This document shows, piece by piece, positions 22,919 to 36,228 of a stretch of 64,000 bases of DNA. Within the stretch, counting starts at the first letter, position 1. Every line of letters starts with the position of its first letter. Below the pieces are notes generated by a model. The model saw nothing but the letters and a program-made list of their open reading frames with translations. It did not search any database and was not told where the DNA came from. The position numbers were made by a program, and so were the translations under genes. Source of the DNA: Lineus longissimus (Eukaryota; Nemertea; Pilidiophora; Heteronemertea; Lineidae); the NCBI RefSeq assembly GCF_910592395.1, contig NC_088315.1, positions 14,737,808 to 14,801,807 of the forward strand, read 5' to 3'.

Positions 22919-22924
22919 AACATT
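22919..22924. repeat. Target site duplication, left (AACATT)
   Basis: AACATT directly precedes the AG terminus of the Polinton and recurs at 36223-36228 after the CT terminus. Six-base duplications are the rule for Polinton integrase. Confidence 0.95.
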
Positions 22925-23054
22925 AGAATATATGTATTGCGATGGTAGGAACTAGGTTATGCTTTAGGCCCTTTTGACCAAAGACCTTACAGGTCTTTTG
23001 CCCCAAATAAGCCTACAACCCCAAAGAACCAATCCACCACAATACATATATTCT
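22925..23054. repeat. Hairpin within the left terminal repeat (130 nt)
   Basis: Outer AGAATATATGTATTG pairs perfectly with inner CAATACATATATTCT at the hairpin base, followed by cGaTGG/CCACCA (wobble-compatible). The apex is the perfect palindrome AAAGACCT-TAC-AGGTCTTT at 22980-22998. The middle is imperfectly paired. Confidence 0.85.
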
Positions 23055-23117
23055 ATCATTCATGAGATTCCCAGTGAAGCGTTGCAATGAAATGGTCAAT
23101 GAAATGGTGAGGGAATA
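22925..23117. repeat. Polinton left terminal inverted repeat (193 bp)
   Basis: Matches the right repeat (36042-36222, 181 bp) base for base over most of its length. Differences are the outer ~11 bases, their inner partner, and a 12-bp tandem duplication (caatgaaatggt) near 23093-23108 that explains the length difference. Confidence 0.95.
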
Positions 23118-23418
23118 CTAGAGCTCAATGGGTTAATGTAATCATGACTTACTGTATTCCAACAGAAAGTACACGTCAATAGCTTTCCAAGGATACATCA
23201 TTGCAAATATCCGTTAAAAAATAGCAGAGAAATGAACCCTTGAAGTTCGCACATCTTGACAGTCCCAGCGTATTCCAATAAATGCTGTAGGCCTACACGA
23301 CAGCTGTTACAGTGATTAATCATTGTTGCTTGAATCTATTGAAAATATTGTTGACAGAGTCTGCATGTACATGGTAACATATGTTACCAAACAACACTCA
23401 CGTCCCAAAGTATTACAA

Positions 23419-23550
23419 AGGTCTATTGTTCGTTAATGCGTTTATCCGACAGAATTTAGAGAAATTATTTTAACGACGCAAAAATAATTTTCAGCGCTGA
23501 AAATATTTTCGAAAATTCTGTCGGATAAACGCATTAAGACACAATAGGCC
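23419..23550. repeat. Subterminal inverted repeat, left side
   Basis: 24-bp perfect arms (taatgcgtttatccgacaga onward, 23434-23457 and 23513-23536), extended imperfectly to ~38 bp outward. The loop contains a second palindrome centred on cagcgctg (23480-23508). Candidate replication or packaging site, or promoter control for the first gene at 23826. Confidence 0.8.
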
Positions 23551-23568
23551 TTTTCATGTCTTTGACAA

Positions 23569-23662
23569 GCAAAAATAATTAATGACTGCAACATCTGATA
23601 TGGCCATTGTAATTTGCAAGCACAAATAATTAATGACTGCAACATCTGATATGGCCATTGTA
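23569..23662. repeat. Two 43-bp direct repeats upstream of the first Polinton gene
   Basis: gcaaaaataattaatgactg... at 23569 and gcacaaataattaatgactg... at 23620, nearly identical through ggccattgta, period 51 bp. They lie between the subterminal palindrome and the first start codon. Confidence 0.85.
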
Positions 23663-23825
23663 CAACTGAATATCACTATGGTTTAAAGGCAAATGTTATT
23701 CTGTCCATGGAGACATGATGTTAACGTCACACTTTCTCCATCTGGTGAGATTATTCCATTAAAATAAATGGCCTTTTTACTGTCTTCATTAACCAAAATT
23801 CAAGGAAAAAATTCAAGTAAATTAA

Positions 23826-25217
23826 ATGTATTATCCAATAGCAAATCAACATAAAAGTAAATTCACCTATGACTTCTTTAATTTAGAAGTAACTGTTAAT
23901 ACTAATAACTTCTTCCGCCTACAAGAAACTAAGATAACACCTGGGTTTTTGAGCCTGAAAAATAAGAAAGACTGTCTGCGACTGGAAAAGAATCCATTAT
24001 CGTTTTACCAGAACCAATTTAACATGGCTGTTTGGTTTGCTACAACAGGTTGTGATATTTCAATAGACGATCACTTGAATCACAGTGACCCATTGATAAG
24101 GTCAATTTACAGGTTTCATGTTTACTATCAAATATTGAAGATCATGAAGAATCTAGAGATACCAATTCCAGGTGAAAGTGATTTTAATGAGACAAACAAT
24201 AACATTAACCGTAGGAAACTAGGAGGGTTATTGAGTGAATTTGGTTTAAAAGACGAGTACGATTTCTCGGTGTTTGAAAATAACGGTGGTTGGAGGTCAT
24301 GGAGTGTACCGGATTACAACCCGAACATAACTGATCCCGGATATTACATCAATGATTCTAAAATCAATTTCTTCCTCATGCAAGTTCATGAAAATAGAAT
24401 GCCACCGATGTTCAGTAAAGACTGGGATGCTGGAATGGCTAATTTCAAATATCCAGATATTTTCATCAAGGATCATGTCAGGAGACACAAGAATGTATTT
24501 GATGTAATTACACAAAATGAATGTCAAACCTATCAACAATTCATGATATTTAAATCAAATGGTTTCTCTAATCCTGGAATAGAGAGGTTGAATGATACAA
24601 TAAGAACATATGTTTACTGTATTCTGGGTGCTCAGGCGTTGACCAGAACACCAATAATTGGAGTACCGGGTACAGAATTGGATGCACAGAAGGAATTTAA
24701 CAAATTATTAAAGGACTCGATTAATCAACATCCTGATATTCCCACTTCAATTCAAAGATACCAAAAAGCAGTGAGTGACACTCATACAAGACTAGATTAT
24801 GTAATAGCACCAGGATTGTATGTCATAGGATCAAATATGGTACTCGTTATTGGTAAGCTGGATAACTACAATAATAACATTTTAATAGCACCAAAAAATG
24901 CTAAACCCGGTAAGAATGACATTAACCACAAAAAGACCTTACCACCACCACTGATGGAAGGAAATAGTTCTAAGAAAATAAGAGTTAAGAGTAGCGTTGG
25001 TACTGTCAAGACGGACTTCGTCCTGAGAGCAAAGCTCGAGACCAGTCATAAACCAAAGAGTAATGTTGATACACCAAAAACAACTGAAACCTCAAAGAAT
25101 ATTCCTACTACTACTAAACTTGACACCAAAGTTGAGAAGGAGGATGATACTCATGAAACAATTACATTCATGCTTTACTCAGTTGTTGGTACATTGATTG
25201 TTTTTATGGTTAGATAA
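23826..25217 (+). CDS. Polinton protein with C-terminal membrane anchor (463 aa)
   Basis: Unrecognised by name. The first ~360 residues look globular (blocks such as NMAVWFATTGCDIS and FYQNQFN), followed by a Lys/Thr-rich low-complexity tail and one hydrophobic helix at the extreme C-terminus (FMLYSVVGTLIVFMV), suggesting a membrane-anchored or virion-surface protein. The start follows AATTAAATG like other genes of the element. Codons ~397-405 are built from a copy of the 28-bp hairpin repeat (25013-25040). The next gene starts 10 bp downstream, as in a polycistronic arrangement. Confidence 0.7.
   Translation: MYYPIANQHKSKFTYDFFNLEVTVNTNNFFRLQETKITPGFLSLKNKKDCLRLEKNPLSFYQNQFNMAVWFATTGCDISIDDHLNHSDPLIRSIYRFHVYYQILKIMKNLEIPIPGESDFNETNNNINRRKLGGLLSEFGLKDEYDFSVFENNGGWRSWSVPDYNPNITDPGYYINDSKINFFLMQVHENRMPPMFSKDWDAGMANFKYPDIFIKDHVRRHKNVFDVITQNECQTYQQFMIFKSNGFSNPGIERLNDTIRTYVYCILGAQALTRTPIIGVPGTELDAQKEFNKLLKDSINQHPDIPTSIQRYQKAVSDTHTRLDYVIAPGLYVIGSNMVLVIGKLDNYNNNILIAPKNAKPGKNDINHKKTLPPPLMEGNSSKKIRVKSSVGTVKTDFVLRAKLETSHKPKSNVDTPKTTETSKNIPTTTKLDTKVEKEDDTHETITFMLYSVVGTLIVFMVR
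25013..25040. repeat. 28-bp double-hairpin repeat, copy 1
   Basis: Two adjacent mini-hairpins: GGAC-TTC-GTCC and GAGC-AAA-GCTC, followed by gag. In frame inside the 463-aa gene. Same unit as the copies at 26788, 27031, 28962, 30483, 32137 and 33381. Confidence 0.8.
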
Positions 25218-25227
25218 ATAAGTAATT

Positions 25228-26625
25228 ATGGCTGAAGGAGGTGAAGATATCCAAATGGGTGAGTTAGATAATTATCGCTTTCGTAATGTGGATGATCCTA
25301 ATACAGGTGAAACCAATAGAACTTTTCAAGATGACGGCACAACATACAACACAGGAGGTGGAAATCTTACTACTGAAACTTCATTCACTACAACTCCAGA
25401 AAGAGTAAGAGGTATTGTCCCTGAATTGATGGAAAAGGAGTTAAGATACGATACAATAGAGGATAAACTTGATAAAGCATTGGGAGGATCAAACTGGAAT
25501 TATGACAAGAAAAAATTGAGTAATCTTGCACCAAACATTATTTACATTGAAAACAAACTTTATTTATGGTGGCAAACACAGGATGAAGTTGATTTGATAA
25601 CGGATAAACTAGAAAACAAAAATTTATTTAGCACGGCCTATCCTGATAAGAAAGGACCCATTATCAAGTTAATTCCTTTAACTAAGGATAATGGAAGCTT
25701 CTTTGCTGAAAACACTTTAAAGAATAAGTTTGGTCTGAGATTTGTTAATTATTTAAAAGTTATGATTGCACCTGACCCACCAGTAAGTCAACCTGAATCT
25801 GCATCCACTCAAACAGACATATTAATTAATGAGGTAAACAGTTCAAACCAACCAATAGATAAACTGATAGATTCTAATGATGATGAACTTAAAACACTGG
25901 GTTTTACTGAATATGCCTTGAGAGAACTTAGAGGGTTAAAACAGGCTGGTGATGATCTAGCTGCAGTAAAGAGGGATAAGGACATGCAAATAGAGGAATT
26001 AGAAAATAAACTTCGTAATTTAACAAGAGACTATGTAAAGTCTGTAGAAGAAGATACTAAAGATAAAGTGGAGTTGAAAAAGCAAATAGATGAACTAAAT
26101 GACAAATTGCATGAGGAACAGTCAAAGGTATGGAGGTTAGACAATGACAGGGAGTCACAAACTAGAAGAATTAAACGTTTAATTGTTGATGTTCTAAAGA
26201 AACCAGATTCAACTATTCCTCTAAAGGACAGAATAAAGTTACTTTTTAAGACGTATGGTGTAACTATTAGCGCCATAATAACAGCTGTTGTAATGACATT
26301 TACAACTCTAGGTCTCAGTATCAGTAGTGCTTTAAGTGGTGCCACTAAATCTGTAAAACCAACTCCAGGACCAGGACCATCTCCAGGACCAGGCCCAACT
26401 CCAGGACCTACACCAGAACCTGGACCAAAACCATCAATACCAGATAAAGTAAAAGAAGGTCTCAAGAAGTTTGCTGAATGGCTAAAAGAACTAGCCAAGA
26501 AATCAGCTGCGGCTTTACCGGGAATCATCGGTTCTATCGTATCATTTCTCCTGAAAACAATTGGTGCAGTTGTTGGCTTTCTAGCTGAACATGAATTACT
26601 TTTACAGGAAGTCAACACTAGATAA
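25228..26625 (+). CDS. Polinton coiled-coil, membrane-segment protein, C-terminus lost
   Basis: 465 residues: polar N-terminus, coiled coil (about 245-305, with IEELENKLRN and LKKQIDELNDKLHEEQ), hydrophobic segment (about 345-375, ISAIITAVVMTFTTLGLS), Gly/Pro-rich linker (PGPGPSPGPGPTPGP), and a final hydrophobic region (LPGIIGSIVSFLLKTIGAVV) ending GFLAEHELLLQEVNTR. Homologues in other Polintons, as I recall them, continue into a last membrane helix after FLAEH. Here that part is replaced by sequence shared with the truncated polymerase gene, so a deletion joined the two. Role unknown; membrane association likely. Confidence 0.7.
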   Translation: MAEGGEDIQMGELDNYRFRNVDDPNTGETNRTFQDDGTTYNTGGGNLTTETSFTTTPERVRGIVPELMEKELRYDTIEDKLDKALGGSNWNYDKKKLSNLAPNIIYIENKLYLWWQTQDEVDLITDKLENKNLFSTAYPDKKGPIIKLIPLTKDNGSFFAENTLKNKFGLRFVNYLKVMIAPDPPVSQPESASTQTDILINEVNSSNQPIDKLIDSNDDELKTLGFTEYALRELRGLKQAGDDLAAVKRDKDMQIEELENKLRNLTRDYVKSVEEDTKDKVELKKQIDELNDKLHEEQSKVWRLDNDRESQTRRIKRLIVDVLKKPDSTIPLKDRIKLLFKTYGVTISAIITAVVMTFTTLGLSISSALSGATKSVKPTPGPGPSPGPGPTPGPTPEPGPKPSIPDKVKEGLKKFAEWLKELAKKSAAALPGIIGSIVSFLLKTIGAVVGFLAEHELLLQEVNTR

Positions 26626-26787
26626 GCATAAAAAGAAATGTGGAGAACACGATTACTGTAAGATTACTTTGCCTCCACCTAACAGTAAATGGTCACAAAT
26701 TAAATTTGAAAAACACTCATTCAAAAATAGAGTTCCGTTTGTGATCTATGCTGATTTCGAAGCGATAAGCACAACAGTCAATGATAA

Positions 26788-26804
26788 CTCGAGCTCTGCT
26801 CTCA
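26788..26804. repeat. Double-hairpin repeat, copy 2 (half)
   Basis: ctcgagctctgctctca: the GAGC/GCTC half only, in opposite orientation to copy 1, in frame in PolB, encoding SSSAL. Confidence 0.75.
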
Positions 26805-27030
26805 CAACTCAGACAGATACCACTGTTACCACTAAAAAACTTTTTAAACAAAATGCATCAGCTGTTGGTGTTTATGTTCACTCAGACTACACACACCTTT
26901 ACAGTAGCCAGTATGTGTCTCACAGGGGTGCTGATGTTGTAGATGTGTTCTGTAATTGGTTAATCAGGATGGAAGAACAATTCTCTAATTTATTGAACTG
27001 TAACTTTCCTCTAACAATGACAGATGAAGA

Positions 27031-27058
27031 CTCGAGCTCTGCTCTCAGGACGAAGTCC
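27031..27058. repeat. Double-hairpin repeat, copy 3
   Basis: Full 28-bp unit, exact reverse complement of the copy at 30483-30509 apart from its edges. In frame in PolB, encoding SSSALRTKS. Confidence 0.8.
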
Positions 27059-27267
27059 GACTGGCATAAATATCAATTAGAAACACATTGTTACTATTGT
27101 AATCAACCTTTGGGATATGACAAGGTCAAGGATCATGATCACTACTGTGGTAGATATCGAGGTGCTGCTCACAACTCGTGTAATTTGAATGAAAAGAAAG
27201 CTATGTTTGTTCCAGTGTTTTTCACAATCTCAGTAATTACGATTCTCACTTATTTATTAAAGAATTA

Positions 27268-28962
27268 ATGACTAAGCTACCGAAGTACAAGAAACTGAAA
27301 ATACTTGCCAAAACATCAGAGGAATACATTTCATTTCAGTTCGGTTGTTTCAGGTTTTTGGACTCGTACAGATTCCTGCAGTCAAGTTTAGACAACATAA
27401 CCAAATCAATGTTGGATGATGATTTTAAAATTACCAGACAGCTGTTCCCAAATACCACTGACTTTAAGCTATTGAGGAAGAAGGGTTCAGTACCTTACTC
27501 TTTTTACACATCACATGAAAGCTACAATGTTACTTACCTAGAAAAGTCTATGTTTTTTGACGAATTGAAAAATGAAATGGCACCTGATTCTGCCTATGAT
27601 GAGGCTAAGGTAATATGGGATCATTTCAAGATCAGGAATCACGGTGAGTTCATTGACCTCTACCTCAAAACTGATGTGATCCTTTTAGCTGATTTATTTG
27701 AGAAATTCAGGGATGTCAATTTGAACTACTTTCAGATAGATCCATGTCACTGTTACTCGGCACCAGGCCTAACCTGGCAAGCTGGTTTGAAGTACACAGG
27801 AATAAACCTAGAACTACTGACTGATACCAACATCTTACTTACTTTTGAGAAAGCAATACGAGGTGGAATTTCGGGTGTTATGGGAACAAGACATGTCAAG
27901 GCAGATGAACACCACAAACTACTCTATGTAGACGCAAATAATCTCTACGGCTGGTCCATGATGGAACCTCAACCCTATGGTAGTTTTGAAATGATAGATA
28001 TTGATCCACTTAACATGAATGTTATCAGTAAAGAGCAGATTATGGCAATTCCAAGTGATAGTGAAGTAGGCTACTTCTTAGAGGTTGATTTGGAGTATCC
28101 AGGAAATATTAAATTTAAGTCAAGGAACTTTCCATTCTGTCCCGAATCTCTCTTTATTGAAGATGATGAATTAAGTCCTTACCAGAGAGAGTTACTGGGC
28201 GATGATAAAAGATCAAATGTAGAGAAACTAATACTAACACAAAAGGATAAAACTAATTACATAGTGCATTACAGAATGCTACAATTTTACCTCAAGCACG
28301 GAATGGTACTTAAGAGGGTTCATTCAGTGATAAGCTTTAAACAATCAAAGTGGTTAGCACCATACATTGATTTTAACACTAAAAGACGTATGGATTCTAA
28401 GACTGATTTTGAGAAAGACTATTTTAAGCTCATGAATAATGCGTTCTACGGAAAGACTTGTGAGAATGTAAGGAACAGGGTTGAAATTGAATTTGTATCG
28501 GACGGGGAGAGAGCCAGGAATGTAATGGCCAATCCCAGGTTTTCATCGATATGCGTATTTGACGAACATAATGCTGCTATTAGCATGAGGAAAACATCAA
28601 TGAAATTCAACAAACCAATCTACATAGGAGCTTCAGTACTTGAATTGTCTAAATTATTAATGTATGAATTCTATTATGAAGTTCTTCAACCGTACTTTGG
28701 TGAGAAAAATATTGAACTGCTGTATCTAGATACAGATTCCTTTGTACTTAACATTAATACTGATGACTTAACTAAAGACTTAAAGGAGTTGAAACACTAT
28801 TTTGACTTCAGTAATTATCCAAAAGATCATCCACTCTATGATACCAGTAAAAAGAAGGTACCAGGCTACTTTAAGGATGAGCTAGGAGGAGTAGAGATGA
28901 CTGAATTCATTGCCCTGAGAAGTAAGATGTACGCTTACAGGACTAGGATTAGGACTATTTAG
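27268..28962 (+). pseudogene. polB: Polinton PolB, polymerase part, C-terminally truncated
   Basis: 564-residue frame with exonuclease motif II (FLDSYRFLQSSLDNI, ~30-44), exonuclease III (LKTDVILLADLF, ~132), polymerase motif A (DANNLYGWSM, Asp at ~221), motif B (MNNAFYGKTCEN, ~388) and motif C (LDTDSF, ~486). This is the protein-primed PolB signature of Polintons and adenoviruses, which replicates the linear element. The frame ends RSKMYAYRTRIRTI just before hairpin repeat copy 4; the usual ~80-100 C-terminal residues are absent. Catalytic motifs are intact, but the frameshift and both truncations make a working enzyme unlikely. Confidence 0.9.
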
Positions 28963-28989
28963 TCGAACTTTGTTCTCTGGACGTAGTCC
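28962..28989. repeat. Double-hairpin repeat, copy 4 (diverged), at PolB 3' end
   Basis: gtcgaactttgttctctggacgtagtcc matches the unit with several changes. It coincides with the truncation point of PolB and separates the plus-strand block from the convergent minus-strand block. Confidence 0.65.
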
Positions 28990-29003
28990 GGGTCCTGTTT
29001 GAT

Positions 29004-29663
29004 TTACTGAACTTTTAGTTTTTCTAGCATCTCTGTCTGTGCTAGTTTTTTTCCTTCTTCTAAAAAAGTCTTCTTTAAAGACTCTACATCAACAGCTGAA
29101 CTTGCCTCCCTTTGTTTTTTCCTAATGGCATTTTTCATCGAAATGTATTTCTCCTTCTCCTTGAGAATCAAAGTAAACTCATCTGTAGATATGTGAGAAT
29201 CGGTTAAGGCTTTACTAACCAAATCATTGATTGTGTTCAGTTTTGAAATTGCCAACATTCTGATATTCTCATGTTTTTCAATTTTCCTTAGAATATTCTT
29301 TTTCTCCCAGCCTAAGGCTGATGAAATAATGGCACTACCTATTGTTACGCCACCCAAAGCTAAGCCTATCGGTGCCGTGATGACACCAGCTAGAGCGGAA
29401 ACACCAACAGATCCGGCTGCTACGCTAGTTAAATTAAGGAAATGGCTAATGCCAGTAATTACGCTAAATGCTTTTTTGTACTTTGAAAATATCTTTCTTC
29501 TAAATTCAATCTCGCTTTCTAAGAAACTCTTAACCTCACATATTTGTTGTAGTCTGAAAGCCTGAGGGTTACTTTCTGTATGCTTTTCAGACCTTTCATA
29601 GTTCAATTGACTTTCAGAGTTTAAATTACTTAAATCTGGATAAACCTTATTGTCTCCATCCAT
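29004..29663 (-). CDS. Conserved Polinton protein with paired hydrophobic helices (219 aa)
   Basis: Helical N-terminus (QICEVKSFLESEIEFRRKIF), then two Gly/Ala-rich hydrophobic helices (about 68-115, ITGISHFLNLTSVAAGSVGV and APIGLALGGVTIGSAIISSA), then a charged helical C-terminus with ALTDSHISTDEFTLILKEKE. I recognise the pattern from Polinton elements of cnidarians and other animals, where it has no assigned role; a membrane or virion core-associated protein is plausible. Its ATG lies in AATTAAATGG and the gene upstream ends 5 bp away. Confidence 0.7.
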   Translation of the reverse strand: MDGDNKVYPDLSNLNSESQLNYERSEKHTESNPQAFRLQQICEVKSFLESEIEFRRKIFSKYKKAFSVITGISHFLNLTSVAAGSVGVSALAGVITAPIGLALGGVTIGSAIISSALGWEKKNILRKIEKHENIRMLAISKLNTINDLVSKALTDSHISTDEFTLILKEKEKYISMKNAIRKKQREASSAVDVESLKKTFLEEGKKLAQTEMLEKLKVQ

Positions 29664-29667
29664 TTAA

Positions 29668-29919
29668 TTAGTGGGAATAACTAGAATCAGTTGTTCTGTC
29701 ATTTCTAGTGTTTAGTGTTGATCCTACAGACACTACAGGTTTTTGAAGTACATTAAATTTTAAAGGTTTTTCTGTCTCAGCAGGCACAGCAGGTTTTAAA
29801 GGTTTTTCGGGACCAGGCTCCAACTTTGACTCTACTTCTGCCTCTAATTCTCTATGAAATCGTTCTAATCTTTCTTTCCAATTACGTGGTCGTTTTGTGT
29901 AACCCCAAGTTCTATTCAT
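29668..29919 (-). CDS. Small Polinton protein, Pro/Lys/Glu-rich (83 aa)
   Basis: Begins MNRTWGYTKRPRNWKERLER, then a low-complexity section with two repeats of EKPLKPAV/EKPLKFNV. Not recognised. Preceded by CTTAATTAAATG, the shared start context, and packed between two minus-strand genes with 4- and 19-bp gaps, which supports it being real despite its size. Confidence 0.55.
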   Translation of the reverse strand: MNRTWGYTKRPRNWKERLERFHRELEAEVESKLEPGPEKPLKPAVPAETEKPLKFNVLQKPVVSVGSTLNTRNDRTTDSSYSH

Positions 29920-29938
29920 TTAATTAAGTAAAATAAAA

Positions 29939-31063
29939 TCAATTCACTGCAAAGAGTAAATTTCTTTCAAGTCTATTATTCAACTTAATCATCTCGTTTA
30001 TGATTTCTGTCTGACTACATATGTTAATGTTCTGGTTCATTCTCATGTTATTATTTAAATTCGATAATCTATCAAGCAGAATCATATTTTCATCACGAAG
30101 ATAATCCCCGAAATGCTGTGATATCACTATTTTCCAATTTGGTATTACATCCTGGTCTCGAAAGACAAACCAGTTTTCACTTCTCATCTTTACCATGAAC
30201 TCCATTGACCTATCCAATTGATCCTTAAATAGTGTGTAGTCTACTTTAGCACTCTTCTGTCTGTTTTCTGTCTTTTCCATTGGTCTAATGTTAAACCAAG
30301 CAAAGCACAGTTCAGGTTTATCTTTGAATTCCTTTATTGGTAAGACATGATCCAACTCTTCTTCTACTATTCGAACTCTGTTCTCGGGACTTTGTCCTAT
30401 TGGAGATAGACTCCTCTGGTACTCTAACCACTGTGAGAAGAAACTGTCTGTACATCCTAGATTGAATGATGAATTACCGGTCGGACTTCGTCCTGAGAGC
30501 AGAGCTCGATTACACTCTCCCTTAGAAATGCGGTTTAGACCAACTCTAATTTTGTGTCTGTCTCTATTACCATTTTGGTCAAGGTAATCCTTTTTGTAAT
30601 ATGAATTAAAACATGATCTACAGTTACCTCTATTTCCGTCTTTACCAAATTCACCATCACTTAGTAATTTATTTTCATAACATTTATTACATCCCTTGAT
30701 TTTACTTGAACCACATTCTTTACAGTAATCAAGTAGTTTATTACGCCTGTTCTTTTCAAAATTAATTTCAGGTTTCTTTTCACAGCACTTAACACAATAA
30801 ATTGTAGGTTGATTTTCCATGTTTTGATTCATCATATTATTCTGATTTTCCATGTTTTGATTTTCCATGTTTTGATTTAAGATAAACTGATTTATCATAT
30901 TTTGATTTAACATGATCTGATTTATCATATTTTGATTTAACATATTATTTTGATGCAAATAATACAAAAACTTCTGAATATTCTGATTCATCATATTATC
31001 ATGATTCATCATACCATTTTGATTCATCATACCATTTTGATTATCAAATATTGCTCCCTCCAT
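29939..31063 (-). CDS. HNH-like, zinc-binding protein with Asn/Met repeats (374 aa)
   Basis: The N-terminal ~80 residues are a low-complexity array of NQNM-type repeats (15-18 bp units at 30815-31050). Next come paired Cys motifs (CVKCCEKK, CKECGSSK, CNKCYENK, CRSCFNSYY) and an HNH-like core: LDHVLPIKEF, then CFAWFNIRPMEKTENRQK. HNH proteins nick or cut DNA, and such genes occur in viruses as homing or packaging nucleases. A hairpin repeat lies in frame (30483-30509, NRALLSGRSP). Start codon follows AAGAAATGG. Substrate unknown; an HNH fold is inferred from motif order only. Confidence 0.65.
   Translation of the reverse strand: MEGAIFDNQNGMMNQNGMMNHDNMMNQNIQKFLYYLHQNNMLNQNMINQIMLNQNMINQFILNQNMENQNMENQNNMMNQNMENQPTIYCVKCCEKKPEINFEKNRRNKLLDYCKECGSSKIKGCNKCYENKLLSDGEFGKDGNRGNCRSCFNSYYKKDYLDQNGNRDRHKIRVGLNRISKGECNRALLSGRSPTGNSSFNLGCTDSFFSQWLEYQRSLSPIGQSPENRVRIVEEELDHVLPIKEFKDKPELCFAWFNIRPMEKTENRQKSAKVDYTLFKDQLDRSMEFMVKMRSENWFVFRDQDVIPNWKIVISQHFGDYLRDENMILLDRLSNLNNNMRMNQNINICSQTEIINEMIKLNNRLERNLLFAVN
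30483..30509. repeat. Double-hairpin repeat, copy 5
   Basis: ggacttcgtcctgagagcag followed by agctcga: GGAC-TTC-GTCC and GAGC-AGA-GCTC stems, in frame in the HNH-like gene. Confidence 0.8.
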
Positions 31064-31151
31064 TTCTTTCTTTATTTAGTAGGACATTTTTTTTTTAAAT
31101 TACGTTTTTCGAACTTGTTCTTGTGACTTAAGTCACTTTAGAGACTTTATT

Positions 31152-32273
31152 TCATTTCAATGATTTGATATCAGAAACTGGTAACCATTCATTGAACTTA
31201 TCACTGTAACCCTTCCACTTCACTAATCCGTATTTCTTGCCTTTACTGGTCTTGTACCTTAGGATTTTCTCGATCTTGTACTCTAGCTGGTCAGGATTAG
31301 GAACATAGCTCAATTCCTCTTCATAGAAATATCCTTGAATTTCTTCTTTGTGGTAATCCTCAAGCTTGTAGACGATAGGGTGAGTAAAGATGATCTGTTT
31401 GATTTGGAACACCTCCTCAGTGTAGTTGGGCATGTAACCTTTACCGAAAATGGACTTGTACTTTGAAATTCTTACACTGTCACATACTTTGTACTTTGGA
31501 TCACCAAATGTCTCTTTGAGGTGAAGACCGTAAAGATTGTACCACACTATTCCTTCGTTTTCCATCTTTCTGGCGTCTACAGGTTTCATACCTATTGATG
31601 AGTGAAATGTGTTATTGTAGCCGCTGACCAGGTCATCCAGAACGTCAATCCACTTGTCAGTCTCCTTAGCGGTGAAATAACGCCACATTTTTTCTTTAAG
31701 GGTTCTATTGAATCTCTCTACTACTGCTGCCTTCTTATCAGATTTTGTGGAGAACCATTCTATGTCATTTTCTGTTAAGAGTTCCTTGAAGTGTTTGTTG
31801 TAAAATTCTTTACCGTCATCAAACTGGATTTTCGTTGGTTTTGCTTCCTCAAATATCACTTTAAATGCATCTCTGATTTCTTCTCCCCTCTTACTCTTAA
31901 CTGCTAGAGCCCAAGAAAAACGACTAAATAGATCTATGACTGTTAAAATGAATCTGTTGCCTTTATTTTGTTTCTCGAATTTTTGCATGTCAACCAGATC
32001 TGCTTGCCATTGTTGATCGATGTACGATACCATTGTCTTCCTGAAGGTGAATTTCTTAATGGCCGGTTTGTGTAGTTGGTGAGTTGGTAGTGTTTCTAGA
32101 AATTCTTTCACTTCTTTTTGTTTAATAAGTTTTCCTGAGCTCTGCTCTCGTGACAAAGTCATATCTTCCTTGACCTGTTTCCAGATTTTACTCAAAGAAC
32201 TGTAAGCCACGGGACTCTCGGGGTTGTAGTACAAATCCCTTAGATACTGCTGTGTGTCATCCTTTACATTCAT
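31152..32273 (-). CDS. int: Polinton integrase (rve) with C-terminal chromodomain
   Basis: 373 residues, intact. rve core: Asp92 in QQWQADLVDM, Asp153 in FDDGKEFYN, Glu186 in VVERFNRTLKEK, the retroviral-type DDE triad that inserts element ends and makes the 6-bp duplications. The C-terminus is a chromodomain (EYKIEKILRYKTSKGKKYGL, then WKGYSDKFNEWLP), known in related integrases to bind modified histone H3 and bias insertion. The N-terminus carries a zinc-poor helical lead. Divergent from the ATPase with start codons four bases apart. Copy 6 of the hairpin repeat is in frame at 32137. Confidence 0.95.
   Translation of the reverse strand: MNVKDDTQQYLRDLYYNPESPVAYSSLSKIWKQVKEDMTLSREQSSGKLIKQKEVKEFLETLPTHQLHKPAIKKFTFRKTMVSYIDQQWQADLVDMQKFEKQNKGNRFILTVIDLFSRFSWALAVKSKRGEEIRDAFKVIFEEAKPTKIQFDDGKEFYNKHFKELLTENDIEWFSTKSDKKAAVVERFNRTLKEKMWRYFTAKETDKWIDVLDDLVSGYNNTFHSSIGMKPVDARKMENEGIVWYNLYGLHLKETFGDPKYKVCDSVRISKYKSIFGKGYMPNYTEEVFQIKQIIFTHPIVYKLEDYHKEEIQGYFYEEELSYVPNPDQLEYKIEKILRYKTSKGKKYGLVKWKGYSDKFNEWLPVSDIKSLK
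32137..32160. repeat. Double-hairpin repeat, copy 6 (diverged)
   Basis: gagctctgctctcgtgacaaagtc: first stem intact, second stem degraded. In frame in the integrase, contributing SREQSSG. Confidence 0.65.
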
Positions 32274-32280
32274 TTAAATG
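32271..32280. promoter_or_regulatory. Palindromic divergent start site CATTTAAATG
   Basis: A perfect 10-bp palindrome whose two halves are the start codons of the integrase (left) and ATPase (right). There is no room for a conventional leader, so both genes must be transcribed from signals lying within each other's coding sequence or from this core itself. Confidence 0.8.
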
Positions 32281-32898
32281 AGTGAAGTATTTATTTACGA
32301 GCGACACAATATGTTAATTTCTGGTGTTACCAATTGTGGTAAGACATATTTTGCCCTTGACCTCTTAGAAAAGGAGTATCGGCACAAGTTCCAGAACATA
32401 GTCATTTTCTGTCCAACATATTTCAACAATAAGACATATGAAAGGAAATGGATTTACCAAGACAAGAATGTCTACATAGTTAATCCCGAAGCTGTGGCCA
32501 GTAATTTGGACCTTGTGCTTCAGTTTGCTACTCTGACCTTTGCTGGTTCTAACACATTATTCCTCATTGATGACTGTGCTAATTTGAGAGACACAAAAAA
32601 GAAGGTGTCCGAGTTATGTAATCTTGCCTTTTCCGGCAGGCACTACAATCTCACTGTTTGGTTACTAGTTCAGAAGTACAATTCAGTTGTCAAGGACTAC
32701 AGAGAGAACATAAGAATTTTAGTATTATTTTTTAATAAGGATGAATCAGCCATGAAAGATGCCTTAGAAGAAAACAGTGTTATTCCTAAGGAGAAAAGAC
32801 AGTACTACATAGAAGAACTTAAGATGAAAAAAGGATCAAAACTGATCATTAGATTACAACATCCATTTGGATTTACTCTTTCCCATCAAAAATCTTAG
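32278..32898 (+). CDS. FtsK/HerA-type genome-packaging ATPase
   Basis: 206 residues, intact. Walker A GVTNCGKT at 16-23, Walker B LFLIDDC at 94-100, arginine-containing C-terminal part (SGRHYNLTVWLLVQKYNSVV). This is the A32-like packaging ATPase of Polintons, adintoviruses, virophages and poxviruses, which pumps DNA into capsids. Its length is slightly short of the family norm but no break is visible. It is the only plus-strand gene in the right half and its 3' end overlaps that of the 150-aa gene by 4 bp. Confidence 0.92.
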   Translation: MSEVFIYERHNMLISGVTNCGKTYFALDLLEKEYRHKFQNIVIFCPTYFNNKTYERKWIYQDKNVYIVNPEAVASNLDLVLQFATLTFAGSNTLFLIDDCANLRDTKKKVSELCNLAFSGRHYNLTVWLLVQKYNSVVKDYRENIRILVLFFNKDESAMKDALEENSVIPKEKRQYYIEELKMKKGSKLIIRLQHPFGFTLSHQKS

Positions 32899-33347
32899 TC
32901 CCGCTTCTCATCAATGGTCTTAGTCTTTCTAACCCTAGTAAAATAATAAATTATTAACCCTAAACCACTAAGTCCTAGTCCTAGGTATTCGTATTTCTTC
33001 ATTTCATCACTAGGTTGGTAGTAATCACTTAATTGTGGTCGCTGAGGTAGTACAATAGTTCTTTCTGGATGTAAATGATTGTAAACAGTAAGTGCTGAAT
33101 CAGTATTGTTAAAATCAATAGAAGCGTCTCTTTCTCTCTTTAATTCAAGGTTAACGAAGTCAATGGTACTTTTCCTATGCTCCTCCCATTCTGTGGAGGC
33201 CTTCTGTAATTTCTCCTGAGCCAAATCATGTCTTTTCACTTCAGTCTCATAACCGTTTTTGTCTAGTTTTTTAAAAAGGTAACCGGATCCAGTGAATGCT
33301 AATCCATTGATTATTGCAGATCCAAATAACATGCCAATGCCAGCCAT
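32895..33347 (-). CDS. Conserved Polinton membrane protein (150 aa)
   Basis: N-terminal hydrophobic segment with the family pattern AFTGSGYLFKKLDKNGY, a charged coiled-coil middle (about 40-80) and a C-terminal hydrophobic helix (YLGLGLSGLGLIIYYF) followed by basic residues. I recall close matches in other animal Polintons; role unassigned, probably virion-associated. Start in GAAATTAAATGG. Confidence 0.75.
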   Translation of the reverse strand: MAGIGMLFGSAIINGLAFTGSGYLFKKLDKNGYETEVKRHDLAQEKLQKASTEWEEHRKSTIDFVNLELKRERDASIDFNNTDSALTVYNHLHPERTIVLPQRPQLSDYYQPSDEMKKYEYLGLGLSGLGLIIYYFTRVRKTKTIDEKRD

Positions 33348-33369
33348 TTAATTTCAACGAATTTTAATT

Positions 33370-34137
33370 TCAATGATGTGTCCCTGAGAGCATAGCTCGA
33401 GTTAATACCAATTGGTACTGTACATTATGACCATTAAGATCGATGATGTCACCTTTTTCATCAGTTAAGCGAATATTCAGCTTATTGAATCTTGGTTTAC
33501 AGGGAATTGCTATTGGTTTCTCAAATGTGTATGCTATTAAATCTCCAAAATTAGCTTCCTTTATTGGTCTTGTGGTTAGCACATCAGATGCTTCACCATT
33601 ACTTAATACACTATTAGATTCGATTATGTCACAGTGAAAAACAAAATGGTTAATTGGTCTAAAATTGATGGGTTTCTCGCTTACAACATCATCCTTACTT
33701 TTATTGTCTAAAGGGTAAGGCCATTCTGATTTCATGCCAAATAATTCATTACTTTTACCAAGAAAATAGATCTGATAATGCGCCTCATTTTTTCTCTTTA
33801 GGAAGTGTAAGACGGCCTTACCTGTTGGTTCTTCAAGGTCAAATCTGACAGCACCTCTACTCATACTATTTTCTTTCAACTTATCCGCAAATACTTTTGA
33901 AAAGCTCTGTAGGTCATAGAGACCATCTGGTAGCGTAATCTCTGCCACATCAAACCCCTTAACTTTGATTCGGTTATTCTCCCTGGCTGCACTTATGTTG
34001 TAGAATGTACAAGGTATTACTGCAAAAGTTAAAGTGATGCTACATGCATCCTGAATTTCAGTCTTGAGATTGACTGTTAAATCACTTGAACTCTGATCTG
34101 GATAGTCACTTGAATCTATGTTCATTACAGTAACCAT
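33370..34137 (-). CDS. Penton-like minor capsid protein (single jelly-roll)
   Basis: 255 residues starting MVTVMNIDSSDYPDQSSSDL, with the family features: N-terminal strand, ITLTFAVIPCTFYNIS, ITLPDGLYDLQSF, and C-terminal KPRFNKLNIRLTDEKGD. In Polintons this gene encodes the pentameric single jelly-roll vertex protein paired with the double jelly-roll capsid protein. Intact. Hairpin repeat copy 7 lies at its 3' end (33381-33401). Start codon in TTAAGTAAATGG. Confidence 0.85.
   Translation of the reverse strand: MVTVMNIDSSDYPDQSSSDLTVNLKTEIQDACSITLTFAVIPCTFYNISAARENNRIKVKGFDVAEITLPDGLYDLQSFSKVFADKLKENSMSRGAVRFDLEEPTGKAVLHFLKRKNEAHYQIYFLGKSNELFGMKSEWPYPLDNKSKDDVVSEKPINFRPINHFVFHCDIIESNSVLSNGEASDVLTTRPIKEANFGDLIAYTFEKPIAIPCKPRFNKLNIRLTDEKGDIIDLNGHNVQYQLVLTRAMLSGTHH
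33381..33401. repeat. Double-hairpin repeat, copy 7 (partial)
   Basis: tccctgagagcatagctcgag: the GAGC/GCTC stem plus part of the second stem, located in the last codons and stop region of the penton-like gene. Confidence 0.65.
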
Positions 34138-34194
34138 TTACTTAAGCAAATTTTCGTTTTCAAATTTACCTTTTATCAAATAAGTAAATTATTC

Positions 34195-34431
34195 TTACTT
34201 CATAATATTTCTGGGTAGGATTCCTTGATCGTAAAGGTACTCTAATGTTCCATTACTAATAGCTACAGTTCCACCCAGTTTAAGAATTTCCTCTAGGTTG
34301 GCCTGACTTGGGGGACCAATATTGATTCTCAAGAACCTTTTCAGTAACATAGAGTAACCAATTGTTGTTGATGCCAACAGTAAACTTTGATACAGTGTAT
34401 TTATGATATCTTTCTTTCCTGGTGTATCCAT
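34195..34431 (-). CDS. Small conserved Polinton membrane protein (78 aa)
   Basis: One or two hydrophobic segments (LYQSLLLASTTIGYSMLLKR and LGGTVAISNGTLEYL) and the end LPRNIMK. Matches in size, layout and position (between penton-like and capsid genes) a small protein I recall from other animal Polintons. Start in TAAGTAATTAAATGG. Function unknown. Confidence 0.65.
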   Translation of the reverse strand: MDTPGKKDIINTLYQSLLLASTTIGYSMLLKRFLRINIGPPSQANLEEILKLGGTVAISNGTLEYLYDQGILPRNIMK

Positions 34432-34510
34432 TTAATTACTTAGAAAATCACTAGTAAAACTCATTTATCTAGTATTCAGTGCTGGAGTGAACTTTTGTTC
34501 TTGCAACACC

Positions 34511-35767
34511 TTAGTGTTGGAGTGAAGCAATCTGAGAATTCTGGATGTTTACCTGGGCGTCAGAAACCACGAATATGTGCATTTTGTATGGTCCCTTTCC
34601 AGATTTCTTTGTAATAGATAATTGAATACCATCTTTTGTGTTCTGGAGCTTCTTTCCTGATCCGTGTAGACGATTATCTTCAGAAGTTCTCAGGTCCAAC
34701 CATAAACCATAGTGATTAGAATCACCATAGTATTTCTCCATGGTCATGTTACAGTCATGAGTTTTCTTCAAATCTTCAGACATAAAATGTTTCTTGATCT
34801 CCTCCCATTGATCCATCATTCTCATTCCTTCTGGGAACACCTGATTGGCAACACCCTCTATTGTGATCTGCACTTTACTTATGTTAGGGTTTTCAAACTT
34901 CTCTGAATCTCTAGCTCCATCTACATAGTCAGACACAAATAGTAATAATAATCCTTTAATAGACATTCTTGGAAAGTTGATGTTCTCATTAATTAGTGTT
35001 TCATTAGCAGTAACATTGACTGTCTTAAAATGGTCTACCCAATCATAAAATATTGAGAATCCAGAATTGTACTTGTTACTCAATTGACTAGCAATCATTT
35101 TGTTGGTTACGGTATCATATTCAAAACAAATATTCTCTAGTTTGTAGCCCATACTTGCTGTGGTTGCGGTAACTATGATCTCTTCCTTTGGTGCTAATGT
35201 GATTTCAATGATAACATCTTCTTGAATTGGAAACTTGTAAAATGGAGCATGATGATGGAATAGTTCAAAATCTAATGGTATTTTGTACTTCTTGTCAAAC
35301 ACTTTCTTTAAAGTCTTTTCATTAGCTGTTTCTCCAGTGACATCAGCTTCAGCGACTCCTGATCTTAATTCTCTAAGATTTTCTGATTGAATACCCTGAA
35401 AAACTCTATCATTTCTTTCTTCTCCAGTTAGCCACAGATCTTTAAATGTAGAATAATGACTGTATTCGTCAAGGTCAAATATCTGCTCTGTTCCCCACTT
35501 AACCACCATCTTTGAAATCAGGTTTCTACCAAGATTATTTACAACACTATTTTTAGAATCACCAGAAATGGTTACATCAGCAGACAGATAAAGAGATTTA
35601 GGTACAAAGAATGTATTCTCTCGCAATGCCGGTATTCTAACATACAAAGTTTCTTTGGGGTTAGCAGATGAGGGGTTATGAGTAATGATATGATGCTGCC
35701 TCTCAGCTTTCAAACCAAGTGGAATCTTATGTGCCCTTTCGGTATTTAATAAATATCCTGTTGCCAT
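34511..35767 (-). CDS. Double jelly-roll major capsid protein
   Basis: 418 residues, intact. Recognised by the N-terminal HKIPLGLKAERQHHIITHNP, the strand VRIPALRENTFFVPKSLYLS, NNLGRNLISKMVVKWG, ELFHHHAPFYKFPIQEDVII and the C-terminal KSGKGPYKMHIFVVSDAQVN. These fit the Polinton capsid protein, which forms trimeric hexon-like capsomers. Preceded by ACTAGTAAATAAATAG and the start codon. Together with the penton-like protein and ATPase it gives this copy an apparently complete shell and packaging set. Confidence 0.93.
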   Translation of the reverse strand: MATGYLLNTERAHKIPLGLKAERQHHIITHNPSSANPKETLYVRIPALRENTFFVPKSLYLSADVTISGDSKNSVVNNLGRNLISKMVVKWGTEQIFDLDEYSHYSTFKDLWLTGEERNDRVFQGIQSENLRELRSGVAEADVTGETANEKTLKKVFDKKYKIPLDFELFHHHAPFYKFPIQEDVIIEITLAPKEEIIVTATTASMGYKLENICFEYDTVTNKMIASQLSNKYNSGFSIFYDWVDHFKTVNVTANETLINENINFPRMSIKGLLLLFVSDYVDGARDSEKFENPNISKVQITIEGVANQVFPEGMRMMDQWEEIKKHFMSEDLKKTHDCNMTMEKYYGDSNHYGLWLDLRTSEDNRLHGSGKKLQNTKDGIQLSITKKSGKGPYKMHIFVVSDAQVNIQNSQIASLQH

Positions 35768-35840
35768 TTTCTATTTATTTACTAGTAAAATTATGTGGAC
35801 TTTGAAGATCACTCATTTCGCAAACGTAGTAATCAATAAG

Positions 35841-35928
35841 ATTCTCTTAGAAGAGAATAACTAGGTCATTGGATTCTCTTCTAAGAGAATATCTAGGTCA
35901 GATTGATTGGATTCTCTTCTAAGAGAGT
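35841..35928. repeat. Three 18-bp palindromes near the right end of the Polinton
   Basis: attctcttagaagagaat at 35841, attctcttctaagagaat at 35873, and attctcttctaagagagt at 35911, spaced 32 and 38 bp and joined by ctaggtca-containing spacers. They lie 74 bp upstream of the capsid start codon and outside all genes. Candidate binding sites for an initiator or transcription factor. Confidence 0.85.
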
Positions 35929-36041
35929 CACTTACTGCGTAATGACTTAATTGGATTTTCCTCGTATTGGCTGGTTTACGAGGAAGTGTTTTCCCCGTAA
36001 TACGATCGATATTTTGTTAAAGCTGACAGATTTCTACAGTA

Positions 36042-36222
36042 TATTCCCTCACCATTTCATTGCAACGCTTCACTGGGAATCTCATGAATGATAGAAAGTG
36101 TGTATTGTGGTGGATTGGTTCTTTGGGGTTGTAGGCTTATTTGGGGCAAAAGACCTGTAAGGTCTTTGGTCAAAAGGGCCTAAAGCATAACCTAGTTCCT
36201 ACCATCGCAATATACACTTTCT
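36042..36222. repeat. Polinton right terminal inverted repeat (181 bp)
   Basis: Reverse complement of 22925-23117 apart from the terminal hairpin bases and the 12-bp duplication on the left. Ends in CT at 36222. Confidence 0.95.
36093..36222. repeat. Hairpin within the right terminal repeat (130 nt)
   Basis: Inner AGAAAGTGTGTATTG pairs with the terminus, which reads AGAAAGTGTATATTG from outside in: 14 of 15 match. The left terminus reads AGAATATATGTATTG, so each end agrees with its own inner arm, not with the other end. Confidence 0.85.
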
Positions 36223-36228
36223 AACATT
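36223..36228. repeat. Target site duplication, right (AACATT)
   Basis: Copy of 22919-22924. It lies in BEL/Pao protease codons (ANV) that continue on the far side of the element. Confidence 0.95.

Follow-up and report, generated by a model that had tools for sequence, protein, structure and literature searches.

The ends of a Polinton family in the genome of Lineus longissimus form hairpins in which the outer arm, at the very terminus, and an inner arm ~100 nt inside it switch together around an unchanged middle. In nearly all copies examined the arms have changed jointly, which points to one arm serving as template for the other during replication. We favor, with somewhat more than even confidence, a conserved hairpin at each terminus, with arms homogenized by intrastrand template switching during replication, probably in the direction from the outer to the inner arm. 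Views on how linear Polinton-like genomes maintain their last bases derive largely from a small number of viruses and phages. In this family, exact patterns match >270 natural ends in one genome, the terminal sequence has switched several times, and some forms are partly converted. End repair, template switching and the folding of Polinton DNA thereby become directly testable, and the family may link protein-primed with hairpin-ended DNA replicons.

The Polinton copy and its two hairpins

The copy at positions 22925-36222 of the window (the whole 64,000-nt stretch of DNA analyzed) is a deleted Polinton, recognized by its 6-bp target duplication, integrase, packaging ATPase and polymerase remnant. 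Direct reading agreed with the initial annotation in the coordinates and letters of both hairpins. The features are as follows:

22919..22924, no strand: target-site duplication, left copy, AACATT (direct reading and script pairing)
22925..23103, + strand: terminal inverted repeat at the left end, ~180 bp (repeat arms 22923-23103 / 36044-36224, 94% complementary)
22925..23054, + strand: left terminal hairpin, 130 nt (folding, z -6.9)
22925..22945, + strand: left outer arm, class A, AGAATATATGTATTGCGATGG (direct reading)
22980..22998, + strand: left apex, AAAGACCT-TAC-AGGTCTTT (direct reading)
23034..23054, + strand: left inner arm, class A, pairing with the outer arm at positions 1-15 (direct reading)
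26591..28962, + strand: polymerase B remnant without the N-terminal part, the rest in two frames (DNA identity to the ORF of L156)
31152..32273, - strand: retroviral-type integrase with chromodomain (PF00665, E 1.1e-11; PF00385, E 1.1e-7)
32278..32898, + strand: A32-like packaging ATPase (PF04665, E 2.7e-14)
34511..35767, - strand: possible major capsid protein, weak (PF16903 Capsid_N, E 0.013, under the cut-off)
36044..36222, - strand: right terminal inverted repeat (same inverted-repeat pairing, 94% complementary)
36093..36222, - strand: right terminal hairpin, 130 nt (folding, z -5.9 and -6.1)
36093..36113, - strand: right inner arm, class B*, AGAAAGTGTGTATTGTGGTGG (direct reading)
36149..36167, - strand: right apex (direct reading)
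36202..36222, - strand: right outer arm, class B, AGAAAGTGTATATTGCGATGG (direct reading)
36223..36228, no strand: target-site duplication, right copy, AACATT (direct reading)

The 6-bp AACATT duplication delimits the termini of the window copy, and 52 elements of the family in the same genome retain the two ends, flanked by a perfect 6-bp duplication. The polymerase remnant comprises two ORFs in different frames (26591-27268 and 27268-28962), 96.8% identical in DNA to the 3' part of a 1250-aa PolB ORF in the full-length copy L156. This latter ORF matches PF03175 (B-family DNA polymerase; E 1e-18) and had no match among the sequences of solved structures in the PDB. No adenovirus-like protease and no Rep/HUH nickase was matched among the ORFs scanned, a set that falls short of one whole intact copy, and searches of viral contigs with the integrase, polymerase, ATPase or terminal-repeat word returned no relatives. 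The family shares with Polinton/Maverick elements the 6-bp target duplications, terminal inverted repeats, PF03175 polymerase (in the full-length copy), retroviral-type integrase and A32 ATPase, and differs from them in having a covarying terminal hairpin at its ends; our literature search found no published account of hairpin-forming Polinton ends.

Each terminal repeat had been described as a 130-nt hairpin with a perfect 8-bp apex, and both the letters and the folding of the two ends bear this out, the apex in each case enclosing a 3-nt loop. In the left hairpin the outer arm (AGAATATATGTATTG) equals the inner arm read as its reverse complement (AGAATATATGTATTG), while in the right hairpin the outer arm is AGAAAGTGTATATTG and the inner arm AGAAAGTGTGTATTG. 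The right inner arm, B*, has class-B letters at positions 5, 6 and 8 and class-A letters from position 10 on. The 88 nt between the 21-nt arms are identical in the two hairpins, so that every difference is confined to the arms. DNA folding gave -24.6 (left) and -22.7 (right) kcal/mol for the strand running inward from each terminus and -27.5 (left) and -26.8 (right) kcal/mol for the opposite strands; z-scores were -5.9 to -6.9, and in each of the four folds 0/200 dinucleotide shuffles were as stable.

Joint changes of the outer and inner arms

Arms fell into classes A, B and C, A differing from B at 4 outer positions and from C at 3. The census consisted of 148 ends from the same genome, to which L067 (outer arm lost), L120 (N run), two inner copies in L073 and a cut copy in L068 do not belong. 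Subtracting L115 (start placed in the flank; B/B by arm reading and exact pattern), L108 and L145, both with terminal lesions, and L082, which has a deleted inner arm, left 144 ends, and subtracting L083, L119 and L149 (private lesions) left 141 classifiable ones. Ends from inner-repeat matches were drawn from the first 100 of 357, the others being covered through exact patterns, if at all. The two arms belonged to the same class in 139/141 ends, a count possibly biased toward matched arms since those of L104-L155 were placed by best complementarity, and in 68/69 ends from arm-blind pattern lists. Exact patterns, which are free of that bias, were applied genome-wide to arms without mismatch and 88-112 nt apart. 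They yielded 220 A/A ends, 34 B/B and 15 B/B* (these from 83 rows of pattern matches), 2 with outer B and inner A, and 0 with outer A and inner B; class C is known from the fetched ends only.

On an unrooted tree made without the arms, the outer class requires 19 changes and the inner class 19. Well-supported branches provided only 9 independent pairs for A versus not-A, of which 8 changed the same way, 0 oppositely and 1 showed no difference (p 0.008); the numbers for B (5/0/1) and C (5/0/0) are below testable size. More than one class occurs in each of five groups whose ends have the same middle letters, and 30 of their 32 ends are concordant (permutation mean 17.1, maximum 26 in 20000, with related ends taken as exchangeable). 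Such identical middles with different arm pairs indicate that the arms switch jointly and leave the middle untouched. Near-identical ends differ at 7-10 arm positions versus 0-1 of the 88 between; L038 and L048, for example, differ at 9 of 42 arm nt, at none of the 88 nt that separate the arms and at 3 of the next 210 nt (binomial p 1e-6). The outer class was predicted to 94% by the stem-partner column 120 nt off and to ≤25% by any one middle column. Counting against the template-switching explanation, the haplotype adjoining the inner arm also held 0.72 bits on the outer class, versus 1.20 bits for the inner class.

A scan for covariation, which the initial annotation had proposed, placed stem pair 8-128 at the top, followed by two within-arm pairs. 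Both sides had changed in 7/19 basal pairs, compared with 0-3 in slid controls. The basal stem was paired in 97.2% of cells among 88 distinct hairpins and was the only structure predicted to be common to them. Arm positions 1-9 matched in 97-100% of the 141 ends; matching dropped inward and ended at position 21. Among the 148 ends, no outer arm lay one step between classes, the sole partial form being the inner arm B*. The initial suggestion that arms change together within an end is upheld in the family, and a terminal hairpin is conserved.

A further claim, of ends matched within themselves but differing from one another, describes the window copy correctly but is not supported as a family rule: with two private lesions set aside, 45/49 TSD-verified elements with readable arms had the same arm class at both ends. 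Termini alike at left and right that do not track their inner arms had been named as contrary evidence; the termini are mostly alike, yet each follows the inner arm of its own end. The four mixed-class elements are the window copy, L012/L087, L146/L147 and L098/L100. The middles of the two ends are also clearly different in L012/L087 and L146/L147, differ by one letter in L098/L100 and do not differ in the window copy.

Template switching and the alternatives

From these sequences we infer a template-switching step, with a direction and timing, and a function for the hairpin. The element would be copied by a PF03175 B-family polymerase (viral/organellar type) such as that encoded in the full-length relative. 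The last bases pair with the inner arm ~100 nt inside in a basal stem of ~19-21 bp, and the middle of roughly 90 nt folds into a small apex hairpin. Once the nascent or displaced strand folds back, one arm could be re-synthesized on the other by intrastrand template switching. New terminal sequence would enter the outer arm, e.g., through recombination with another copy, and the inner arm would then be overwritten from the terminal side inward, over some 9 to 21 nt. The most likely function of the hairpin would be to fold the 3' end of displaced single strands and so offer a duplex end or primer to the polymerase or a terminal protein.

Multi-base changes that make inverted-repeat arms match are present in the family ends, and fold-back copying, as initially suggested, would be their simplest source. 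Arm homogenization and spacer inversion are published marks of template switching (PMC8604942); L031 has a single apex-loop inversion, its loop changed from TAC to GTA between perfect arms (1/148 ends). The Polinton ends have in common with quasipalindrome template switching the multi-base arm homogenization and stem maintenance (PMC8794818) and perhaps, judging from this one case, the spacer inversion. They differ in that these published cases are in yeast genes and RNA genes, while the present ones recur at mobile-element ends, and in that the outer arm is probably leading. Unlimited template switching would have repaired the middle, and the imperfect pairing of the middle in every copy read counts against it.

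As to direction, the incompletely matched class-B ends among the exact patterns have A letters in the inner arm in 17/17 cases (15 B/B*, 2 B/A), which indicates that the outer arm leads, provided A is older; the 15 B/B* ends may be descendants of a single event. Of the ends with different arms at positions 16-18, 22 carry CG in the outer arm and TGG in the inner one, and 1 shows the reverse. L097 is opposite in direction at position 16, its newer letter lying inside if TGG is older. Class A was found on all five middle combinations and class B on four. Since the tree is unrooted, a leading outer arm and a following inner arm are likelier only if class A (and TGG) is older. The initial annotation had the inner arm copied into the last ~15 bases; fold-back copying is supported as the simplest source of the joint changes, but its polarity is doubtful given the 17/17 B ends with A letters inside, the root being assumed. 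For L177, with outer B and inner A, an origin by recombination with a break near the apex is possible, and a search for its partner as a class-B right end with its duplication found none.

Selection alone might also explain matched arms, if these mutate independently and a compensatory change in the partner is favored since a folded end is needed for recognition of the origin, for binding by the terminal protein or integrase, or for priming. The stem pairing across the 88 distinct hairpins and the pairs changed on both sides fit this explanation, and selection for pairing could produce the concordance too. We nevertheless consider it unlikely to suffice, since classes are 3-4 outer positions apart without one-step intermediate outer arms in 148 ends, and since near-identical ends differ in their arms around a nearly constant middle. 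Recombination or gene conversion among copies could instead move both arms jointly, the match dating from one matching founder per class. Consistent with this, the ends are mosaics of several middle haplotypes, and 2/4 mixed-class elements (L012/L087, L146/L147) also have different middles. However, the outer class is tied tightly to the inner arm and weakly to the middle, co-switching would require two exchanges either side of an intact middle, one class recurs on several middle haplotypes, and B* is a chimera inside one arm; recombination as the source of the match is thus improbable.

A dedicated mode of end maintenance, in which the 3' end primes itself on the inner arm, a nick resolves the end and lost terminal bases are rebuilt, is possible but rather unlikely given that the inner arm seems to lag, that two further groups of PF03175-bearing elements in this genome have no terminal hairpins, and that the whole-hairpin inversion expected from AAV-type hairpin transfer is missing in 148 ends, although the near-complete match at positions 1-9, lessening inward, fits it and Streptomyces telomeres are similar in topology (PMC4513846). 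Very improbable, in our judgment, is that the arms are inverted binding sites for the integrase or terminal protein that co-evolve with the protein and form no hairpin in vivo. Its position makes the outer arm the substrate of the integrase, and the arm match stops at position 21, but joint change at paired positions on a constant background is not predicted by such a model itself. We tentatively raise the possibility, less likely than not, of a Polinton lineage with hairpin telomeres atop polymerase-B replication, in which the terminal 15-21 nt would be self-templating, fold-back synthesis would register the arms of each end, and new termini could be adopted while the folded end is kept.

Comparison with other elements and replicons

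Hairpin ends are not general to such elements: in this genome two further PF03175-bearing groups, which likewise have terminal inverted repeats, were without hairpins. These were L159/L160 with L164 (TCCCTT duplication at L159/L160) and L171/L175 (2.7-kb inverted repeat; a clean 6-bp duplication is absent at the ends as read), picked by PF03175 and placeable termini, other Polinton genes being no criterion. L157 (starting in a simple repeat) and L161, L162, L163, L165-L170, L173 and L174 (termini unplaced) were left out. The best complement match of the terminal 15-mers in the two groups was 8-9/15 within 300 nt, and fold z-scores were -1.3 to 0.1.

The terminal palindromes of parvoviruses and AAV fold back with a basal stem and inner hairpin, and AAV-type hairpin transfer gives whole-hairpin inversion (flip and flop). 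The Polinton ends have the fold-back, basal stem and inner hairpin in common with these but are without flip/flop: all had a single orientation, with inversion of 0/148 whole hairpins and 1/148 apex loops. Orientation was confirmed by the inner junction letters in 146/148, the exceptions being L082, whose inner arm is deleted, and L115 (register). This result argues against AAV-style hairpin transfer with inversion, which we rejected, and the likeness to hairpin-ended viruses first proposed, in the sense of parvovirus-type transfer, left no sign in the 148 ends. Bidnaviruses share a Polinton-derived protein-primed polymerase and terminal inverted repeats, whereas their repeats are stated not to fold into parvovirus-type hairpins (PMC4061559).

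The linear telomeres of Streptomyces (Tpg/Tap) are bacterial, with an internal origin and several tight palindromes and without a B-family polymerase, and we claim no homology. They are replicated with a terminal protein, as Polintons may be, and in common with the Polinton ends their end pairs with an internal sequence: the first 13 nt are complementary to part of an internal palindrome, with hairpins between, and there is evidence of fold-back extension in vitro with manganese (PMC4513846).

The Polinton in the window and its terminal hairpins

The Polinton in the window is a single insertion, flanked on both sides by AACATT as read directly in the window. Its features are as follows.

22925–36222, whole element
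22925–23054, left terminal hairpin (130 nt)
36093–36222, right terminal hairpin (130 nt)
within the element, retroviral-type integrase with a chromodomain
within the element, A32-like ATPase
within the element, capsid (weak match)
within the element, polymerase (broken)
23406–23564, second imperfect palindrome, ~480 bp inside the left end (77-nt arms, 74% complementary, 5-nt loop)
23557–23658, 51-nt tandem duplication after that palindrome
25020–25039, 26789–26808, 27032–27051, 28963–28982, first four of eight sites of the 20-nt word GTCCTGAGAGCAGAGCTCGA
30371–30390, 30490–30509, 32135–32154, 33381–33400, last four sites of this word
35840–35938, near the right end, three copies of the palindrome-like word GATTCTCTTCTAAGAGAAT and near forms, spaced 32–38 nt

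The host genome searched comprised 391 Mb in 30 contigs. A full-length relative on one contig (C9), with ends ~18.6 kb apart (L009 and L039), carries a PF03175 polymerase ORF of 1250 aa, the 3' part of which matches the window copy at 96.8%, while the 4.8 kb preceding this match have no counterpart in the window copy (10 kb compared). From this comparison we infer a deletion of ~5 kb, which would make the window element a non-autonomous deletion form of a Polinton. Among named database proteins, the one nearest to its ATPase (P0001, 90% identity) carries the label Bartonella sp. CL46QHWL and lies on a 747-base contig, perhaps host DNA inside a bacterial assembly. The eight occurrences of the 20-nt word (≤4 mismatches) are on both strands, and a search at the same threshold found none in the remaining 50.7 kb of the window; the word is possibly an element-specific signal.

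Each end folds with an outer arm at the extreme terminus (the last ~21 nt), an inner arm ~100 nt inside, an 88-nt middle between them and an 8-bp apex. The arm letters reported by the initial annotation were correct at both ends, and the hairpins it proposed were borne out by DNA folding, in which all four single strands outfolded 200/200 dinucleotide shuffles. The two hairpins differ in their arms only.

Concordance of outer and inner arms

Ends were gathered by three DNA searches with arm-containing queries and by two arm-free patterns, one in the apex (88 matches) and one lying further in than the inner arm (357 matches, with ends drawn from the first 100). Hit lists were merged by hand; the first two DNA searches gave 57 distinct ends, including the two in the window, and further ends came from the rest of the third search, the apex pattern and new places among the 100 listed inner-pattern matches. 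The resulting 148 readable ends had the following outer arms, from which a few depart by private changes.

Class A: AGAATATATGTATTG
Class B: AGAAAGTGTATATTG
Class C: AGAATAGTAGTATTG
C' (2 ends): AGAATAACAGTATTG

Outer/inner combinations were A/A (80 ends), B/B (30), B/B* (16, B* being an inner-arm form that mixes B and A letters), C/C (11), C'/C (2), A/C' (1) and B/A (1), the other 7 having a private lesion or wrong register. Broad class agreed in 139/141 ends, and in 68/69 classifiable ends from the arm-blind lists alone (76 fetched). Exact genome-wide patterns for intact A and B arms 88–112 nt apart lift the sampling limit for those classes. They returned 220 for A/A, a pattern that is its own reverse complement and counts the same ends by both strands. 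A B arm paired with either B or B* gave 83 rows, interpreted as 34 B/B ends that appear once per strand plus 15 B/B* ends that appear on a single strand, always with B outside. Pairings of A with B or B*, whichever lay outside, numbered 2, both with outer B and inner A.

Several copies are rearranged. L082 (C19:2807875–2808324) has a ~14-nt deletion in the inner arm and an intact outer arm. L068 (C7:17103900–17107400) holds two full terminal repeats on the same strand, 1338 bp apart, and a third that breaks off 72 nt in, at the apex, where the end of another copy takes over; one element seems to have inserted in the hairpin apex of another. L073 (C13:15089600–15091500) has two extra terminal-repeat copies inside its right end, 605 and 611 bp apart; neither retains the outer arm, and both break off at one shared word. 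The arrangement is a tandem subterminal duplication.

On a tree built from the middle and the 60 nt beyond the inner arm, with arms excluded (few columns, many open forks), outer and inner class each required 19 changes. Independent A/not-A contrasts on well-supported branches went the same way in 8 cases, opposite in 0 and without difference in 1 (p = 0.008); B (5/0/1) and C (5/0/0) contrasts were each too few for a test of their own. More than one class occurs within each of five sets with letter-identical middles, and 30/32 of their ends were self-concordant, compared with a mean of 17.1 and a maximum of 26 in 20000 shuffles of inner arms within sets, although relatedness makes the ends less than independent. 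Outer class was predicted at 94% by its stem partner, 120 nt distant, and at ≤25% by any single middle column; the haplotype beside the inner arm carried 0.72 bits of information on outer class versus 1.20 for inner class. Between L038 and L048, two almost identical ends that show this most plainly, there are 9 arm differences, 0 in the 88 nt between and 3 in the next 210. In a covariation scan, stem pair 8–128 ranked top, followed by within-arm pairs. Among 88 distinct hairpins, 7/19 basal pairs had changed on both sides and 97.2% of cells were paired (slid controls, 0–3 pairs and 22–61%); the basal stem was the sole commonly predicted structure, the middle varying by subfamily. The proposal that the arms of an end change together was upheld. 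Private changes in single copies (e.g., L056, L119, L134, L149) were one-sided, so the co-changes do not appear to come from a process acting on integrated copies.

Left and right ends, and the direction of change

Perfect 6-bp duplications flank 52 elements, and the arms of both ends were readable in 49. Outer class was the same left and right in 43, another 2 differed by a private lesion, and 4 differed in class (the window element, L012/L087, L146/L147 and L098/L100). Both arms differed in the window element, L146/L147, L012/L087 and L030/L054, and the own-end match was better in all four, too few for a test of their own. In most elements, therefore, an end matches both its own inner arm and the opposite end; the earlier description of ends matching themselves, not each other, is true of the window element but does not hold for the family. 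Mixed-class elements are recombinants or recent switches.

Arm match was 97–100% at positions 1–9 and fell at 10, 16, 18 and 21. In the B* inner arm, positions 5, 6 and 8 read as in class B and the stretch from position 10 inward reads as in class A, which would be the outcome of overwriting an A inner arm starting at its terminal side. All 17 incompletely matched intact B ends had B outside and A letters inside, and the exact-pattern run of A with B arms contained none in the reverse order. Where positions 16–18 differed, 22 ends had CG outside and TGG inside, a single end (L097) having the reverse. This order has the outer arm leading only if A and TGG predate their alternatives. All five combinations of middle halves are found with class A and four of them with class B, a spread that would favour A a little as the older class on an unrooted tree. 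Two combinations are readable either way as to direction (L064, outer A with inner C'; L024/L025, outer C' with inner C), and recombination near the apex may account for L177, whose outer half is that of one subfamily and inner half that of another. With A and TGG assumed older, there is moderate support for the outer arm leading and the inner following, the opposite polarity to the initial suggestion that terminal bases are copied from the inner arm.

Mechanism and precedent

AAV-type hairpin transfer, as in the hairpin-ended viruses to which these ends had been likened, is expected to invert terminal hairpins. No whole hairpin was inverted among the 148 ends, all of which lie in one orientation (inner junction confirming 146), which speaks against such transfer; an inverted apex loop occurred in one end, L031. 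The arm footprints fit well with template switching, by which the arms at Polinton ends would evolve self-templated. Published work describes template switching between short inverted repeats as homogenising arms and inverting spacers (PMC8604942), and as creating and maintaining stems through multi-base compensatory changes (PMC8794818). The closest working analogue is the Streptomyces telomere, whose 13 terminal nt have their complement in part of an internal palindrome; it replicates with a terminal protein, and in vitro work with manganese led to the inference of fold-back extension (PMC4513846).

Bidnavirus repeats, thought to be Polinton-derived, are stated not to form hairpins (PMC4061559), and the excerpted text of a giant-transposon review leaves Polinton hairpins unmentioned (PMC6431247). 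Titles and abstract openings in the open-licence literature disclosed no hairpin-forming Polinton/Maverick ends among the matches listed. The terminal hairpin of this Polinton family is real and well supported, and its arms probably evolve by self-templating. Template switching as a process is already known; its recurrence at extreme Polinton ends, with a record of partly converted forms, is surprising. A distinct end-maintenance step is no more than a possibility.

The terminal hairpin was absent in two other PF03175-bearing groups of the same genome. Outside the elements studied there are numerous PF03175 polymerase ORFs of ~1323 aa that score equally (e.g., C8:3482453, C12:9896843 and C16:9771389), and recent activity of further polymerase-bearing groups of elements is possible.
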